38,853 bases of DNA from Clostridiaceae bacterium (GTDB lineage Bacteria; Bacillota; Clostridia; Saccharofermentanales; UBA5734): assembly GCA_012520975.1 (NCBI GenBank), contig JAAYNF010000015.1, positions 1-38,853 on the forward strand. Reading direction: 5' to 3'. The translations under genes were made by a program, and so were the position numbers. Positions 7,732 to 13,147 of the stretch are shown here, in pieces. How positions within the stretch are numbered: position 1 is the stretch's first letter; the number at the start of each line of letters is the position of its first letter. A model generated the notes under the pieces. It was not told where the DNA came from. It was given only the letters and a program-made list of their open reading frames with translations, and ran no database searches.

Positions 7732-8418
7732 ATGAAACCAAATCAAATCACCATTGCCCTGGACGGTCCGTCCGGGGCCGGCAAGAGCACAGTCGCAGGA
7801 TTGTTGGCAAAAAAACTGGGTATTTTGCATCTCGATACCGGCGCGATGTATCGGGCGGTTGGGCTTAAAGCGCTTCGAACCGGCCTCACGACCGATGATG
7901 AAGAGGCCGTGCGACGAATGCTGGAAACCACCAAACTGGAGGTCATCCTCTCCGAAGACCGACAGCGCGTACTTCTCGATGGCGAGGATGTATCCACCGC
8001 CATTCGGACACCGGAAGCCTCACTGGCGGCTTCGGATTTCAGCAAGCTACCGGTGGTGCGGCACAAATTGGTTGAGTTGCAACGTCAGATGGCGGATCGT
8101 CAATCCTTGATTCTGGATGGTCGCGACATCGGAACCTATGTTCTGCCTCAGGCCACCTGCAAAATTTTTCTGACCGCCGAACCGGCCGAACGTGCCCGAC
8201 GGCGTCTTTTGGATCTTCAGGCAAGCGGTGACCACAGCGCCACCTTAGAGCAGGTGCTGCAGGATATTGAGTACCGTGACCGCCAAGATGCCGGTCGGGC
8301 GCTGGCTCCACTTCGTCAGGCGGAGGATGCCATTTTGGTGGATAGTACCGATTGCAGCGTTGAAGAGGTCGTTGACCGAATTACGTCCTACATCAAGGGA
8401 ATCCGGCATGAGTCGTGA
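7732..8418 (+). CDS. cmk: Cytidylate kinase
   Basis: Phosphorylates CMP and dCMP to the diphosphates, supplying pyrimidine nucleotides and recycling CMP from lipid synthesis. The protein is 228 residues. The P-loop GPSGAGKS is near residues 12-19, followed by LDTGAMYRAVGLKAL, the CMP-binding DGRDIGTYVLP segment, and the RRLLDLQ and QDIEYRDRQD helices characteristic of this family. The start is the first ATG after the regulator gene. The last 11 bases overlap plsC. The order cmk-plsC-ispH/S1 is a recurrent clostridial arrangement. Confidence 0.96.
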   Translation: MKPNQITIALDGPSGAGKSTVAGLLAKKLGILHLDTGAMYRAVGLKALRTGLTTDDEEAVRRMLETTKLEVILSEDRQRVLLDGEDVSTAIRTPEASLAASDFSKLPVVRHKLVELQRQMADRQSLILDGRDIGTYVLPQATCKIFLTAEPAERARRRLLDLQASGDHSATLEQVLQDIEYRDRQDAGRALAPLRQAEDAILVDSTDCSVEEVVDRITSYIKGIRHES

Positions 8419-9076
8419 AAACCGGACATCCACCGGAAGGGTCAATGCATTGTTTCGTCGGATGGCCCGTGCTGTCGCTTGGCTCTATATTCGGCTCTTT
8501 TACCGTCTGTCTTTTACGGGTTTGGAGAATGTTCCGGCCGGCGGCCCGGCAATCTTGGTGGCCAACCACACCGGCGGCGGAGATATTCTGGCGATTCACA
8601 CGGCAATCAAGCCTTGGATTCATTGGGTGGCCAAAAAAGAGTTGTTTAAGCATAAATTGTTCGGGACGGTCCTTTTAAAGCTCGGCTGCATACCCGTCGA
8701 CCGTAAAAAGGCCGACTTAACAGCGGCCCGCGAGATCGTTTCTGCTCTGCGCAACAACCAGATCGTCGGTGTCTTTCCCCAAGCAACGCGGGTTCGCCCC
8801 GATCGCATTCCATACGTCGTTCCGCACAGCGGCGCGATTCGTTTTGCCATTAAAACCGAATCCCCCATCCTACCGGTTGGTATCAGTGCTCCCTTTCGGC
8901 TCGGCGGCAGCGTTCGTATCGTATTTGGAAAGCCGATTAATCTGAGGATGCCTGCCGACAGCCTTAATGATGCCGACCTGATCGATGGTTTGGCCGTTGA
9001 TGTGATGCGAAAGGTTTACGCGTTGGTCGGCTATGATTATCAATTGGTCGATCAAAAGGGAGGGGCGCCGTCATGA
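8408..9076 (+). CDS. plsC: 1-acyl-sn-glycerol-3-phosphate acyltransferase
   Basis: Predicted to add the second acyl chain in phosphatidic acid synthesis at the membrane. The protein is 222 residues with the HX4D catalytic motif NHTGGGD (His54, Asp59), motif II GCIPVDR (93-99) and motif IV LPVGI. Motif III, normally FPEGTR, reads FPQATR (123-128), replacing both Glu and Gly. A hydrophobic stretch lies around residues 19-35. The open frame runs back to 8267 inside cmk, but the ATG at 8408 has an AAGGGA ribosome site and gives normal length. It overlaps cmk by 11 bases and ispH-S1 by four bases (ATGA). Confidence 0.9.
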   Translation: MSRENRTSTGRVNALFRRMARAVAWLYIRLFYRLSFTGLENVPAGGPAILVANHTGGGDILAIHTAIKPWIHWVAKKELFKHKLFGTVLLKLGCIPVDRKKADLTAAREIVSALRNNQIVGVFPQATRVRPDRIPYVVPHSGAIRFAIKTESPILPVGISAPFRLGGSVRIVFGKPINLRMPADSLNDADLIDGLAVDVMRKVYALVGYDYQLVDQKGGAPS

Positions 9077-11400
9077 AGATCATTCTGGCTCGTACATCCG
9101 GATTCTGCTTCGGCGTCAAACATGCCGTGGACACGGCCTATCGATTATCCGAACCGGGACAACAAGCTGATCAACCCCCCATTTATATGTTGGGCGAACT
9201 GATTCACAACCGTCAGATTGTCGAAGAACTCAAAGAGCGGGGACTTCTTTTGGCTGAGCAAGAAGATGATATTCCGAGCGGATCGCGAGTCTTGATTCGA
9301 GCCCACGGCGTCCCGCCGGCAACCATTTGCAAGCTTAAAGACCAAGATTGCCGGATTACCGACTGTACCTGCCCATTTGTCACCAAGATCCATCAAATCG
9401 TCAGACAGGCCTGGCAGCAGGGCAAACAAATCATTATTGCCGGAACTCCGATTCATCCGGAGGTCGTCGGGATCAACGGTGAGTGCGAAAACAGCGCGCT
9501 TATCCTTGAGACAACCGAACAGGCCGAAAGGGTGAATGTTGCTACGGGCGATTGGATTTTGGTCGCCCAAACAACCTTTTCATTTAATGAATATAAAAAA
9601 ATAAGTCAAGTTCTTAAGAAACAAATTGCAAAATTGAAGATATTTGATACAATATGTAGTACGACTGAAAACAGGCAAAAGGAAGCCCTCGAGATTGCCG
9701 AGCAGGTCGATACCATGTTGGTTATCGGCAGTTCGCGTAGCTCGAACACCATCAAGCTTCTGGAAATTTGCCGAGGTCGTTGTGCCGACACGCATCTGAT
9801 TGAACAACCTGACCAAGTCAGGACGCTTCTTGGAGAGCGATCACTGAAAGGTCGAACGGTGGGCATTACAGCTGGGGCGTCGACACCAGAACGTATAATC
9901 AGGGAGGTTATCCAAACAATGACGGAGAACGACGGTTTGCAGAACCAGCAAGAACAGGTTGATGTCAGCTTTTCAGATTTCATCGACAACATCCCTCATT
10001 TAAAAAGAGGAGCGATCGTGAAGGGAACCATTATCCGCTATGATGATGATACCGTTTATGTCGACGTGCGCGATAAATCTGAGGGAAGGATTCCTCGCCA
10101 TGAGTTTGATGGCGATCCGGATTTTGATCTGGACCGAGCCATTGAGGATCATGTTGAAATCGATGTCTATGTCCGCAACATTCGCAATTCGGACATGGGC
10201 AAGGAAATCAGCCTTTCCAAAGCCCGAGTCGATTTCGGCAAATATAAGGCTCTGATTGAAGAGGCTTACAATGAAAAAACACCGATTAACGTTAAGATCG
10301 TTAATGTGGTCAAAGATGGTGTTATCGCGACCTACGGCGGTGTTGACATCTACGTTCATCGCACCCAGCTTGAAATGGGCATTGTCGATGATCTTGAGCC
10401 CTACAGGGGACAGACGATGGACATTCTGGTCACCCAGTATGATCCGGATCGGCGCCGCCTCAGGGTTTCCGGTTCCCGCCGGGCCCTGCTGTCGATCGAG
10501 CGAAAAGCCAAAGCAGAGGAATTATGGCAGACCATTGAGATCGGTAAGGAATATGATGGAATTGTTCGCAGCCTGACCGATTTCGGCGCTTTTGTCGATA
10601 TCGGAGGCGTAGACGGTTTGGTGCATATATCCGAACTTTCCTGGAATCGGATTCGTCACCCATCCGAAGTGGTTAATGTCGGTGATGAAATCCATGTTTT
10701 TGTCAAGGATTTCGATGCGGAACGCAAGCGTATTTCTCTAGGCTATAAGCGCCCGGAGAACGACCCGTACCGTGATGTTGAAAACCGGTTCCCGGTGGGC
10801 TCCATCGTGCACGGTATCGTTGTCCGGATGTTCCCGTTCGGTGCTTTCGTTGAGATTGCGCCCGGTGTTGATGCCCTTTGTCATATTTCACAGATCGCCA
10901 ACGTCAGACTGGCAAAGCCCAATGATGTTTTGGCGGAAGGCATGGAGATCTATGCTCGCGTTCTGGAAGTGAGCAATGAGGCCCGTCGGATCAGCATCAG
11001 CATCAAAGAGGTTGAGCCCATCAATCCTGTCGGATATGGAGATTCCGATGCGCCCACGACCTATCAGGATACCTTTGATCAAGTGGTGACCGAAGATCTG
11101 ATCGAAACCGCGGCTGCCAGCGAAGGCGAGGCTGCCGCAAGCGGCGCAGCGGTCGAAGAAGCCGCCGAAGACGTCGCTGAGCCGACCGAGATCGCCACCG
11201 CTGAAGAAGCCGCCGAAGACGTCGCTGGGCCGACCGAGATCGCCACCGTCGAAGAAGCCGCCGAAGACGTCGCTGAGCCGACCGAGATCGCCACCGCCGA
11301 AGAAGCCGCCGAAGACGTCGCTGAGCCGACCGAGATCGCCGCCGAAGACGTCGCTGGGCCGACCGAGACCGCCGCCGAAGAAGAAGAGAAAACAGAGTAA
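9073..11400 (+). CDS. ispH: IspH (LytB) fused to ribosomal protein S1
   Basis: One 775-residue frame joins two activities. Residues 1 to about 283 are 4-hydroxy-3-methylbut-2-enyl diphosphate reductase, the last MEP-pathway enzyme; its three iron-sulfur cysteines are visible at Cys12 (FCFGVKHAV), Cys100 (CTCPF) and Cys195 (ICSTTENRQ). From about residue 308 there are four S1 RNA-binding repeats, of which the third (DFGAFVDIGGVDGLVHISEL) and fourth (FPFGAFVEIAPGVDALCHISQI) are the most canonical. From about residue 695 there is an acidic repeat tail. The fusion is known from Clostridia, where the S1 part is thought to act as S1 protein; whether it is cleaved or separately translated is not known here. 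It starts within the plsC stop (ATGA overlap) and is followed by a strong terminator. An AT-rich island and an internal SD/ATG lie near the junction. Confidence 0.95.
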   Translation: MKIILARTSGFCFGVKHAVDTAYRLSEPGQQADQPPIYMLGELIHNRQIVEELKERGLLLAEQEDDIPSGSRVLIRAHGVPPATICKLKDQDCRITDCTCPFVTKIHQIVRQAWQQGKQIIIAGTPIHPEVVGINGECENSALILETTEQAERVNVATGDWILVAQTTFSFNEYKKISQVLKKQIAKLKIFDTICSTTENRQKEALEIAEQVDTMLVIGSSRSSNTIKLLEICRGRCADTHLIEQPDQVRTLLGERSLKGRTVGITAGASTPERIIREVIQTMTENDGLQNQQEQVDVSFSDFIDNIPHLKRGAIVKGTIIRYDDDTVYVDVRDKSEGRIPRHEFDGDPDFDLDRAIEDHVEIDVYVRNIRNSDMGKEISLSKARVDFGKYKALIEEAYNEKTPINVKIVNVVKDGVIATYGGVDIYVHRTQLEMGIVDDLEPYRGQTMDILVTQYDPDRRRLRVSGSRRALLSIERKAKAEELWQTIEIGKEYDGIVRSLTDFGAFVDIGGVDGLVHISELSWNRIRHPSEVVNVGDEIHVFVKDFDAERKRISLGYKRPENDPYRDVENRFPVGSIVHGIVVRMFPFGAFVEIAPGVDALCHISQIANVRLAKPNDVLAEGMEIYARVLEVSNEARRISISIKEVEPINPVGYGDSDAPTTYQDTFDQVVTEDLIETAAASEGEAAASGAAVEEAAEDVAEPTEIATAEEAAEDVAGPTEIATVEEAAEDVAEPTEIATAEEAAEDVAEPTEIAAEDVAGPTETAAEEEEKTE
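9626..9653 (+). promoter_or_regulatory. Possible internal promoter inside ispH, upstream of the S1 part
   Basis: TTGCAA (9626-9631) and TACAAT (9648-9653) are separated by 16 bases and lie inside an AT-rich island: only 16 of the 80 bases at 9581-9660 are G or C. It is about 270 bases upstream of an internal ATG that would begin a free S1 protein. Chance occurrence in AT-rich codons is a real alternative. Confidence 0.3.
9903..9921 (+). promoter_or_regulatory. Possible internal ribosome site and start codon for a free S1 protein
   Basis: GGAGG (9903-9907) is followed after 11 bases by an in-frame ATG (9919-9921), exactly at the border between the IspH domain and the S1 domains (residue 283). 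Initiation here would give a 493-residue S1 protein beginning MTENDG. The spacing is longer than ideal. Confidence 0.35.
11155..11390 (+). repeat. 48-bp tandem repeats encoding the acidic tail of the S1 fusion
   Basis: Three full 48-bp units (11155-11202, 11203-11250, 11251-11298), a 42-bp unit (11299-11340) and a partial unit (from 11341) encode copies of EEAAEDVAEPTEIATA with few changes (AEP or AGP, ATA or ATV). The near-identity at DNA level suggests recent expansion or homogenisation by slippage or unequal recombination. Confidence 0.92.
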
Positions 11401-11422
11401 TCGCTACTGTTGAAAATCTTAC

Positions 11423-11456
11423 AAACCGCCGCCAACAATTTGCGCGGCGGTTTTTT
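11423..11456 (+). terminator. Intrinsic terminator after ispH-S1
   Basis: AAACCGCCGC (11423-11432) pairs with GCGGCGGTTT (11444-11453), with an 11-base loop and a T run (11451-11456). It lies 22 bases after the ispH-S1 stop and touches the stop codon of the convergent acetyltransferase gene. On the minus strand the same stem is followed by only a short T run, so it may also stop the convergent transcript, less efficiently. Confidence 0.9.
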
Positions 11457-12585
11457 ATTCAAAGCAACGAAAGTCTGATTTGAGCAGGGCCAAGCGGAGG
11501 ACGTCTTTCCAAGATCCGCCGTGATAAAGTCCTTGCCGATCGATGCCCTCTTCTCGGAAACCAAGTAATTTCAAGAGGCGAAGACTTTGCCGGTTCCCTT
11601 GGATGCAACGGGCGGTTATTCGGTTGAGCCGATAGTCGGCAAAAAGCCAAGCAATCACACTGGACAACACTTCCGGCATCAAACCCCGTCCGCTGAGCAA
11701 CCGATCGATGGAGAAGCCAATTTCACAACTGGAATAAGGAAAGGGTTTTATTTTTTGGCAGGTAATGTGGCCGGCCAGCCAATCCGGACGTTCCGGCCAG
11801 AAAAGCAAAAAATCCTGTTGTTGACCGCGGGCTTGAGCCGCCAGACCATCAAAGACATAACGATGCCAGCTCGGGAATTCATTGGAATCGCCCGACCTAG
11901 GAACATTCCAGCGCTCAATATGATCCTTGTTTCGTCGGTAATAATCATCCAGCAGGGAAATGTGCATGGGCTGGAGCGCACAGATATTAAGTTTGCCGGA
12001 TCCGGCGGGCGGCGTCGGCGATTGTTTAGGGCGATCGTCGGCCAAACGGACATAATGAAGGTGATCCTGCCAACGGTTGTTGATTTTCAGATAACGAGGC
12101 GACAGCCCCTCACAGCGGAAGCCAAGTCTTTCGGCCAATGCAATGGACCGGCTGTTGGTCGGCATGATACTGGCCTGGGCCCGATGCAGGCGAAAATCTT
12201 CAAACAGCACACGAATCGCTGCCTGCCCCGCCTCCAGCGCAAGACCGTTGCCTTGGACAGCCTGATCCAGATGATAGGCGGTGCGGCAGGAGCGAAGACA
12301 ACCGTAGATTATGTCGGTGAAAGCGAACCGGCCGATGATTCTATCGGGTTCATTCCGGCGGAAAAGCCAGAAAGGCAGTGCCCGGCCGGCCAAAAAGCCG
12401 GCATACTCATCGGCTAGATCGGCCTTTTGCTCTTCCAGACGGAAAACCTGATCGTTGCGGGCGGCAAACCAAGGCTGATGAAAAGACCGATTGCGAACAT
12501 AATAATCAAGAACAGCGGGAGCTGCCGAGCTATCCAAGATGCGCAGCTGCAGGCGCGATGTATTAAGCGCAAAGTGATCAGTCAT
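11455..12585 (-). CDS. Tandem-domain GNAT acetyltransferase (two RimJ/RimL-like domains)
   Basis: Predicted acetyl-CoA-dependent N-acetyltransferase of 376 residues built from two GNAT domains joined by a Pro-rich linker (about 183-197). Domain 1 (about 10-182) has the acetyl-CoA loop QGNGLA (111-116) and the NSRSIALAERLGFRCEG helix. Domain 2 (about 198-370) has SGRGLM (298-303) and NRQSLRLLKLLGFREEG. Both copies keep the pyrophosphate-binding loop and the C-terminal LGF motif of the RimJ/RimL branch, so both may be active; they have diverged strongly. RimJ/RimL relatives acetylate N-termini of ribosomal proteins, but many homologues act on small molecules, so the substrate is open. The start at 12585 overlaps the upstream gene's stop by eight bases (ATGACTGA). 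Longer upstream frame is read-through of that gene. Confidence 0.87.
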   Translation of the reverse strand: MTDHFALNTSRLQLRILDSSAAPAVLDYYVRNRSFHQPWFAARNDQVFRLEEQKADLADEYAGFLAGRALPFWLFRRNEPDRIIGRFAFTDIIYGCLRSCRTAYHLDQAVQGNGLALEAGQAAIRVLFEDFRLHRAQASIMPTNSRSIALAERLGFRCEGLSPRYLKINNRWQDHLHYVRLADDRPKQSPTPPAGSGKLNICALQPMHISLLDDYYRRNKDHIERWNVPRSGDSNEFPSWHRYVFDGLAAQARGQQQDFLLFWPERPDWLAGHITCQKIKPFPYSSCEIGFSIDRLLSGRGLMPEVLSSVIAWLFADYRLNRITARCIQGNRQSLRLLKLLGFREEGIDRQGLYHGGSWKDVLRLALLKSDFRCFE

Positions 12586-13147
12586 GCGTTGCGTCCGGAT
12601 CGGCTTTGGGCCGGTCATCGACAGCATCGACAGATTCATCATCCGTCGCCGCCGAATCGTAATCGTTTTCTTCTTCGCAATCGTTGCTCCCCACAAAATC
12701 TGTCGGTTCTTGATCCAAACACGTGGGATGGAGATGACAGTACAGGCCATGATAAAGCCCTTTGCTTTTGGCCGGATCACCGCAAACGGCGCAGGCATCG
12801 GCAGGCAGATCGCCAAGCGACATCATGCCCGATATCTGTCCCAAAATGTAGGCCATCCTGTCGGTGGTCAACGGCAGCAACCCTTCACGGATTCGAACAC
12901 AGAGAAAATTATCCGCAAAGTCGTAGTTGCGAAGGCGAAGCACATCAAAATTCTCATCCAGAAACCGGATCAAGCTTTGCAAAGCATCAGGGCTGATTCC
13001 GGCTAGGGAAGTGATGAATGCTTTGAAACGTTTTCCCTCCAAACCGGTGAACAGATAACCGTTGTATTCGCCAAATACGGTTTGTTCATCGGCATGAACT
13101 TTCCAATCATTATCTCTGGCCAGTTTTATCAATTGTGCAGACAACAT
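12578..13147 (-). CDS. Hypothetical protein with a Cys/His cluster and acidic C-terminal tail
   Basis: I do not recognise this family. The 189-residue protein has a mixed N-terminal part (1-115, e.g. DNDWKVHADEQTVFGEYNG), then a cluster of possible metal ligands: CAVC (119, 122), Cys137, His138, His140 and Cys143 (YCHLHPTC). It ends in a strongly acidic tail (about 157-189). There is no signal peptide or membrane segment. The cluster resembles a small zinc-binding knuckle, but this is inference. The start at 13147 is chosen because the minus-strand sequence carries AAAGGAGA just upstream; the frame continues to 13207. It is probably cotranscribed with the tandem acetyltransferase through an eight-base overlap, hinting at a joint role. 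Confidence 0.75.
   Translation of the reverse strand: MLSAQLIKLARDNDWKVHADEQTVFGEYNGYLFTGLEGKRFKAFITSLAGISPDALQSLIRFLDENFDVLRLRNYDFADNFLCVRIREGLLPLTTDRMAYILGQISGMMSLGDLPADACAVCGDPAKSKGLYHGLYCHLHPTCLDQEPTDFVGSNDCEEENDYDSAATDDESVDAVDDRPKADPDATHD

Follow-up and report, generated by a model that had tools for sequence, protein, structure and literature searches.

The fusion of IspH with ribosomal protein S1 has been described as a 'Rosetta stone' fusion (Rao et al. 2015, PMC4746011) and is represented by the NCBIfam family NF000907, 'bifunctional IspH / 30S ribosomal protein S1'. In that work the fusion is treated as one protein, and the words operon, Shine, internal and promoter do not occur. 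The authors propose a link between IspH and the ribosome, and report that the Clostridium thermocellum fusion is an active IspH whose S1 part is dispensable for catalysis. A 46-kDa protein that co-purified with the fusion was identified as E. coli Rho, with an N-terminally tagged construct, and says nothing on free S1. Bacterial genes in which an internal in-frame start gives a full-length and a short protein probably include infB (the IF2 forms), cheA and clpB, and the rpsA promoters of E. coli appear to lie in the preceding gene, cmk. We found no paper that places an internal promoter or start in ispH-S1, although supplements and most subscription journals lay outside the search. Word searches of the main texts of PMC7438776, PMC6203783, PMC6260860, PMC8407422 and PMC5171806 gave nothing on ispH-S1 (RpsA is mentioned in general in PMC6203783), and the passages found in PMC6495232 and PMC8336468 are unrelated.

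The ispH-S1 locus and its internal signals

The window, that is, the whole 38,853-nucleotide stretch that was analysed (contig JAAYNF010000015.1 of assembly GCA_012520975.1, Clostridiaceae bacterium), contains a reading frame of 775 residues at 9073-11400 (+), which matches NF000907 (682 bits against a cut-off of 624, residues 1-672) and is composed of one LYTB domain and four S1 domains. The frame lies downstream of cmk ((d)CMP kinase, 7732-8418 (+), TIGR00017) and of a plsC-like acyltransferase ORF (8267-9076 (+), PF01553), which overlaps the ispH start by 4 nt (ATGA), and is convergent with an ORF carrying two tandem GNAT acetyltransferase domains (11455-12816 (-)). As in E. coli, where rpsA probably follows cmk, S1 lies downstream of cmk and has a candidate promoter in the gene before it, except that here the order is cmk-plsC-ispH-S1 and the gene before S1 is ispH, fused to it in frame.

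The first-pass annotation noted an AT-rich patch with promoter-like hexamers and an internal ribosome-binding site within this frame, and suggested that a free S1 protein could be made in addition to the fusion. Its observation is exact. The patch at 9581-9660 holds 16/80 G/C and contains a −35-like TTGCAA (9626-9631) and, 16 nt downstream, TACAAT (9648-9653), which is preceded by TG to form the extended −10 TGATACAAT (9645-9653), 5/6 to TATAAT. GGAGG (9903-9907; GGGAGG, 9902-9907) lies 11 nt before an ATG (9919-9921), which is in frame, 282 codons after 9073. The product from 9919 (9919-11400) has 493 residues, comprising four S1 domains and an acidic Ala/Glu-rich C-terminal tail. The tail (11080-11400) is an Ala/Glu/Asp-rich tandem repeat of EEAAEDVAEPTEIA-like units.

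Within the window alone, neither signal beats chance. A promoter scan found 3 sites in 8000-12500 against 3.3 expected, and 5 of 240 in-frame internal ATGs in 28 window ORFs have GGAGG 5-12 nt upstream. The spacing of 11 nt is longer than at many starts, but best-match SD spacings of 11-12 occur at other window starts too (474, 28968, 32034 and 33053), and SD-like sites precede several other window genes. The 16S 3' end was not found in this draft genome of 176 contigs, so the anti-SD is assumed. The case for both signals rests on conservation.

To assess conservation, we took fused genes from relatives (39 genomes), the class (147 genomes) and the phylum (119 genomes), leaving out four fused genomes of the class sample and fifteen genomes of the phylum sample; a separate scan of genome contigs gave only two loci. 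Of 271 loci examined (numbered with L), 11 had no IspH part, one (L009) was set aside, and 227 were fused with a placed border. L009 carries one in-frame TAG inside the ispH part while the S1 part and the internal SD-ATG are intact, which could reflect an assembly error or an ispH lesion that leaves S1 alone. In several draft genomes (among L015-L018, L034-L036 and L215-L218), contigs end at or near the ispH/S1 border (L034-L036, L215-L218), possibly because of repetitive linkers.

The Shine-Dalgarno sequence and start codon at the domain border

At the end of ispH the residues are typically [K/R/E]-E-V, and the codons spell GGAGG in 221 of 227 fused genes, whereas 31.4 would be expected from each gene's own codon usage. 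Thinning does not change this: GGAGG is present in 65 of 68 genes below 50% identity (11.3 expected) and in 31 of 33 below 45% (6.0 expected). In AT-rich genes (GC3 under 25%) it is present in 41 of 42, against 1.75 expected. The residue before Glu may be K, R, E, G, L, Q, T or M, but its codon ends in G. Elsewhere in the same genes, [KRE]E[VA] sites are spelled with GGAGG 45 of 557 times. The six exceptions are instructive. Specifically, L110 has AGAGAGGT; L227, L233 and L264 replaced Glu by Gly and still read GAGGGGGT; and L265 and L277 have a full GGAGG with an in-frame ATG a little further downstream, SD and ATG having moved together.

An in-frame ATG lies within 5-11 nt of the GGAGG (nearly always 11, sometimes 8) in 220 of 227 genes, a GTG in five more, and the two others are the relocated ones. 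Other in-frame ATGs in these genes have GGAGG 5-12 nt upstream 10 of 1340 times. The next residue after the ATG is often S or T (64 of 141). Where acidic linkers of up to about a hundred residues separate the domains (L021, L023, L031, L032 and L037), they lie after this ATG and not between SD and ATG; in L021, L023 and L037 an acidic stretch similar to the C-terminal tail of the window's S1 lies instead between the internal Met and the first S1 domain.

Furthermore, six loci have ispH and S1 as separate, overlapping ORFs, in which an equivalent SD inside ispH serves as that of S1, the S1 start lying in another frame 7-10 nt after a GGAGG. In L154, L155 and L156 (family f26, whose member L140 is fused) and in L200 (family f84), the GGAGG at the usual codons of ispH stands 9-10 nt before the S1 start (ATG, in L200 GTG). 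In L201 and L202 (family f78), the GGAGG lies further downstream, as in their fused relative L277. L277 and L202 are of one genus and differ between SD and ATG by one G, which decides between fusion and separate genes. These are draft genomes, but split pairs occur in three families, and on a FastTree tree of 233 rows fused/split changes six times at least. In the window, by comparison, the frames coincide, so read-through yields a fusion. A third gene layout is seen in L170 and L171 (family f116), where an unfused ispH is directly followed by S1 with its own downstream SD and no GGAGG at the ispH end.

The candidate promoter within ispH

The AT-rich patch recurs in relatives, with a lower GC than the gene as a whole in all 26 relatives listed with a patch (L036 starts after it), and centres on TTTGATACAATATGT, the codons of F-D-T-I-C beside a conserved Cys. 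We therefore rejected the reading of the patch as imported DNA; the candidate promoter largely explains it. The promoter counts exclude 11 of the 227 fused genes, which had no recognised T-I-C motif. TGNTACAAT is present in 26 of 26 order-level genes and in 56 of 113 other class members. In particular, TGATACAAT is present in 23 of 23 order-level genes with Asp at this position (1.8 expected), the three with Gly have TGGTACAAT, and Ile is ATA in 26 of 26 (2.5 expected). In the rest of the class, TGATACAAT is in 55 of 113 genes (55 of 69 with Asp, 10.1 expected); in class genes above 50% GC it is in 23 of 25. TGATACAAT occurs nowhere else in 295,887 nt of the same genes and in 0 of 20 uncut unfused ispH genes, 18 of which have Asn.

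A TTG in the −35 zone is enriched (25 of 26 order-level genes against 8.4 expected; 39 of 56 against 17.8), and the −45 to −6 zone is poorer in G/C than codon usage predicts in 26 of 26 order-level genes. The full −35 hexamer is nevertheless weak (TTGCAA, 4/6; mean best match in the order 4.08 against a null of 3.73). The fold of the predicted leader (9660-9918 (+)), whose start site at about 9659-9662 is inferred from the −10, is unremarkable (z-score −1.69).

Presence of the promoter is nearly all-or-none by family, with at least 11 changes on the tree. It is missing in 57 of 113 fused class genes outside the order and in 75 of 77 of other classes, where −10-like sites are not in excess (146 against 146.6), so transcription from inside ispH cannot be the general rule. 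In family f37, six Clostridium-like genomes (L161-L166) have a separate S1 gene besides the fusion, contrary to the statement in PMC4746011 that no other rps1 gene was found in fusion carriers. In this family the promoter is absent in 6 of 6 while SD and ATG remain; as this is one family, it is only a hint. It also follows that need for free S1 is not the only possible reason for conservation of the SD-ATG.

A probable nested S1 gene and alternative readings

The comparison supports the interpretation of the first-pass annotation, as the internal SD and ATG are conserved to an extreme degree and the proposed promoter is conserved through the order and in about half of the other class members sampled. 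The comparison adds that the SD-ATG is phylum-wide while the promoter is clade-limited, and that split gene pairs use an equivalent site. The motive proposed in the first-pass annotation, that S1 is needed in far greater amount than IspH, rests on E. coli and is not supported by any data here. We consider it most likely, with good confidence although on sequence comparison alone, that the annotated fusion is a nested gene. In this model, ribosomes that start at 9073 make the 775-residue IspH-S1 fusion, while 30S subunits independently bind the GGGAGG inside the last IspH codons and start at 9919, making a free 493-residue S1. In the window's order and in about half of the sampled rest of its class, the extended −10 promoter would also drive a shorter mRNA, starting near 9660, that can only give free S1, and thus IspH (in the fusion) and S1 could be set at different levels. 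Conservation of each signal beyond protein constraint is established; use of the promoter and start in the cell, the presence of free S1 and the ratio of the products are inferred. The genome of the window (96% complete) has S1-domain hits in four ORFs, of which only this one carries several, and the other three are inferred to be PNPase and similar proteins, so free S1, if needed, must come from here. As in the genes with internal starts mentioned above, one frame with an internal SD and start codon is expected to give two C-terminally identical products; here, however, the short product would be a whole ribosomal-type protein, the long one joins it to an unrelated enzyme, and some lineages add an internal promoter.

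The alternative that free S1 comes only from internal initiation on the long operon mRNA, without an internal promoter, holds as far as the data go for most of the phylum, as other classes have the SD-ATG (L174-L279) but TGATACAAT in only 2 of 77. For the window's own order it is unlikely, because nothing at the protein level asks for the invariant TGNTACAAT, the ATA codons and the lowered GC. It is still less likely that the SD-like sequence is a translation pause that helps IspH fold before S1 is made. The sequence does lie exactly at the domain border, and internal SD-like sequences may induce pausing, but a pause needs no start codon, yet an in-frame start is kept in 227 of 227 genes when relocations are counted and moves with the SD in L265 and L277, and in split pairs the S1 ORF begins there.

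Similarly improbable is a leftover of an ancestral overlapping gene pair that is no longer used after fusion. Split pairs do exist among fused relatives, with repeated fused/split changes on the tree, but unused synonymous G's would decay, in contrast to the retention of GGAGG in divergent and in AT-rich genes. Protein constraint alone, whereby K/R/E-E-V-x-x-x-M and D-T-I-C happen to spell the motifs, is very improbable. E-V is common at this place also in unfused IspH, but the codon-usage nulls contradict this reading, and among unfused, uncut IspH without an adjacent S1, GGAGG occurs in 1 of 19 and a start codon at this place in none; Asn rather than Asp occupies the promoter site in 18 of 20 unfused ispH genes.

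A more far-reaching reading is possible but tentative: that the fusion is, phylum-wide, mainly a nested S1 gene whose own ribosome-binding site (and, in one class, own promoter) is written into ispH codons, strongly enough to have changed IspH residues (Asp or Gly where unfused IspH has Asn, beside an iron-sulphur Cys). In this reading most S1 in these cells is free and the fusion is the minor product, and the 'Rosetta stone' link between isoprenoid synthesis and the ribosome is largely a by-product of overlapping gene layout.

The IspH-S1 fusion has been taken as a clue that isoprenoid synthesis and the ribosome are functionally linked. If S1 is also, or mostly, made alone from inside ispH, that inference, the annotation as one bifunctional protein, and any drug or knock-out work on 'IspH-S1' need re-reading, since deleting or inserting into ispH need not remove S1, and vice versa. 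It is also a rare case where promoter and ribosome-binding signals have visibly shaped an enzyme's codons, and apparently its residues, across a phylum.
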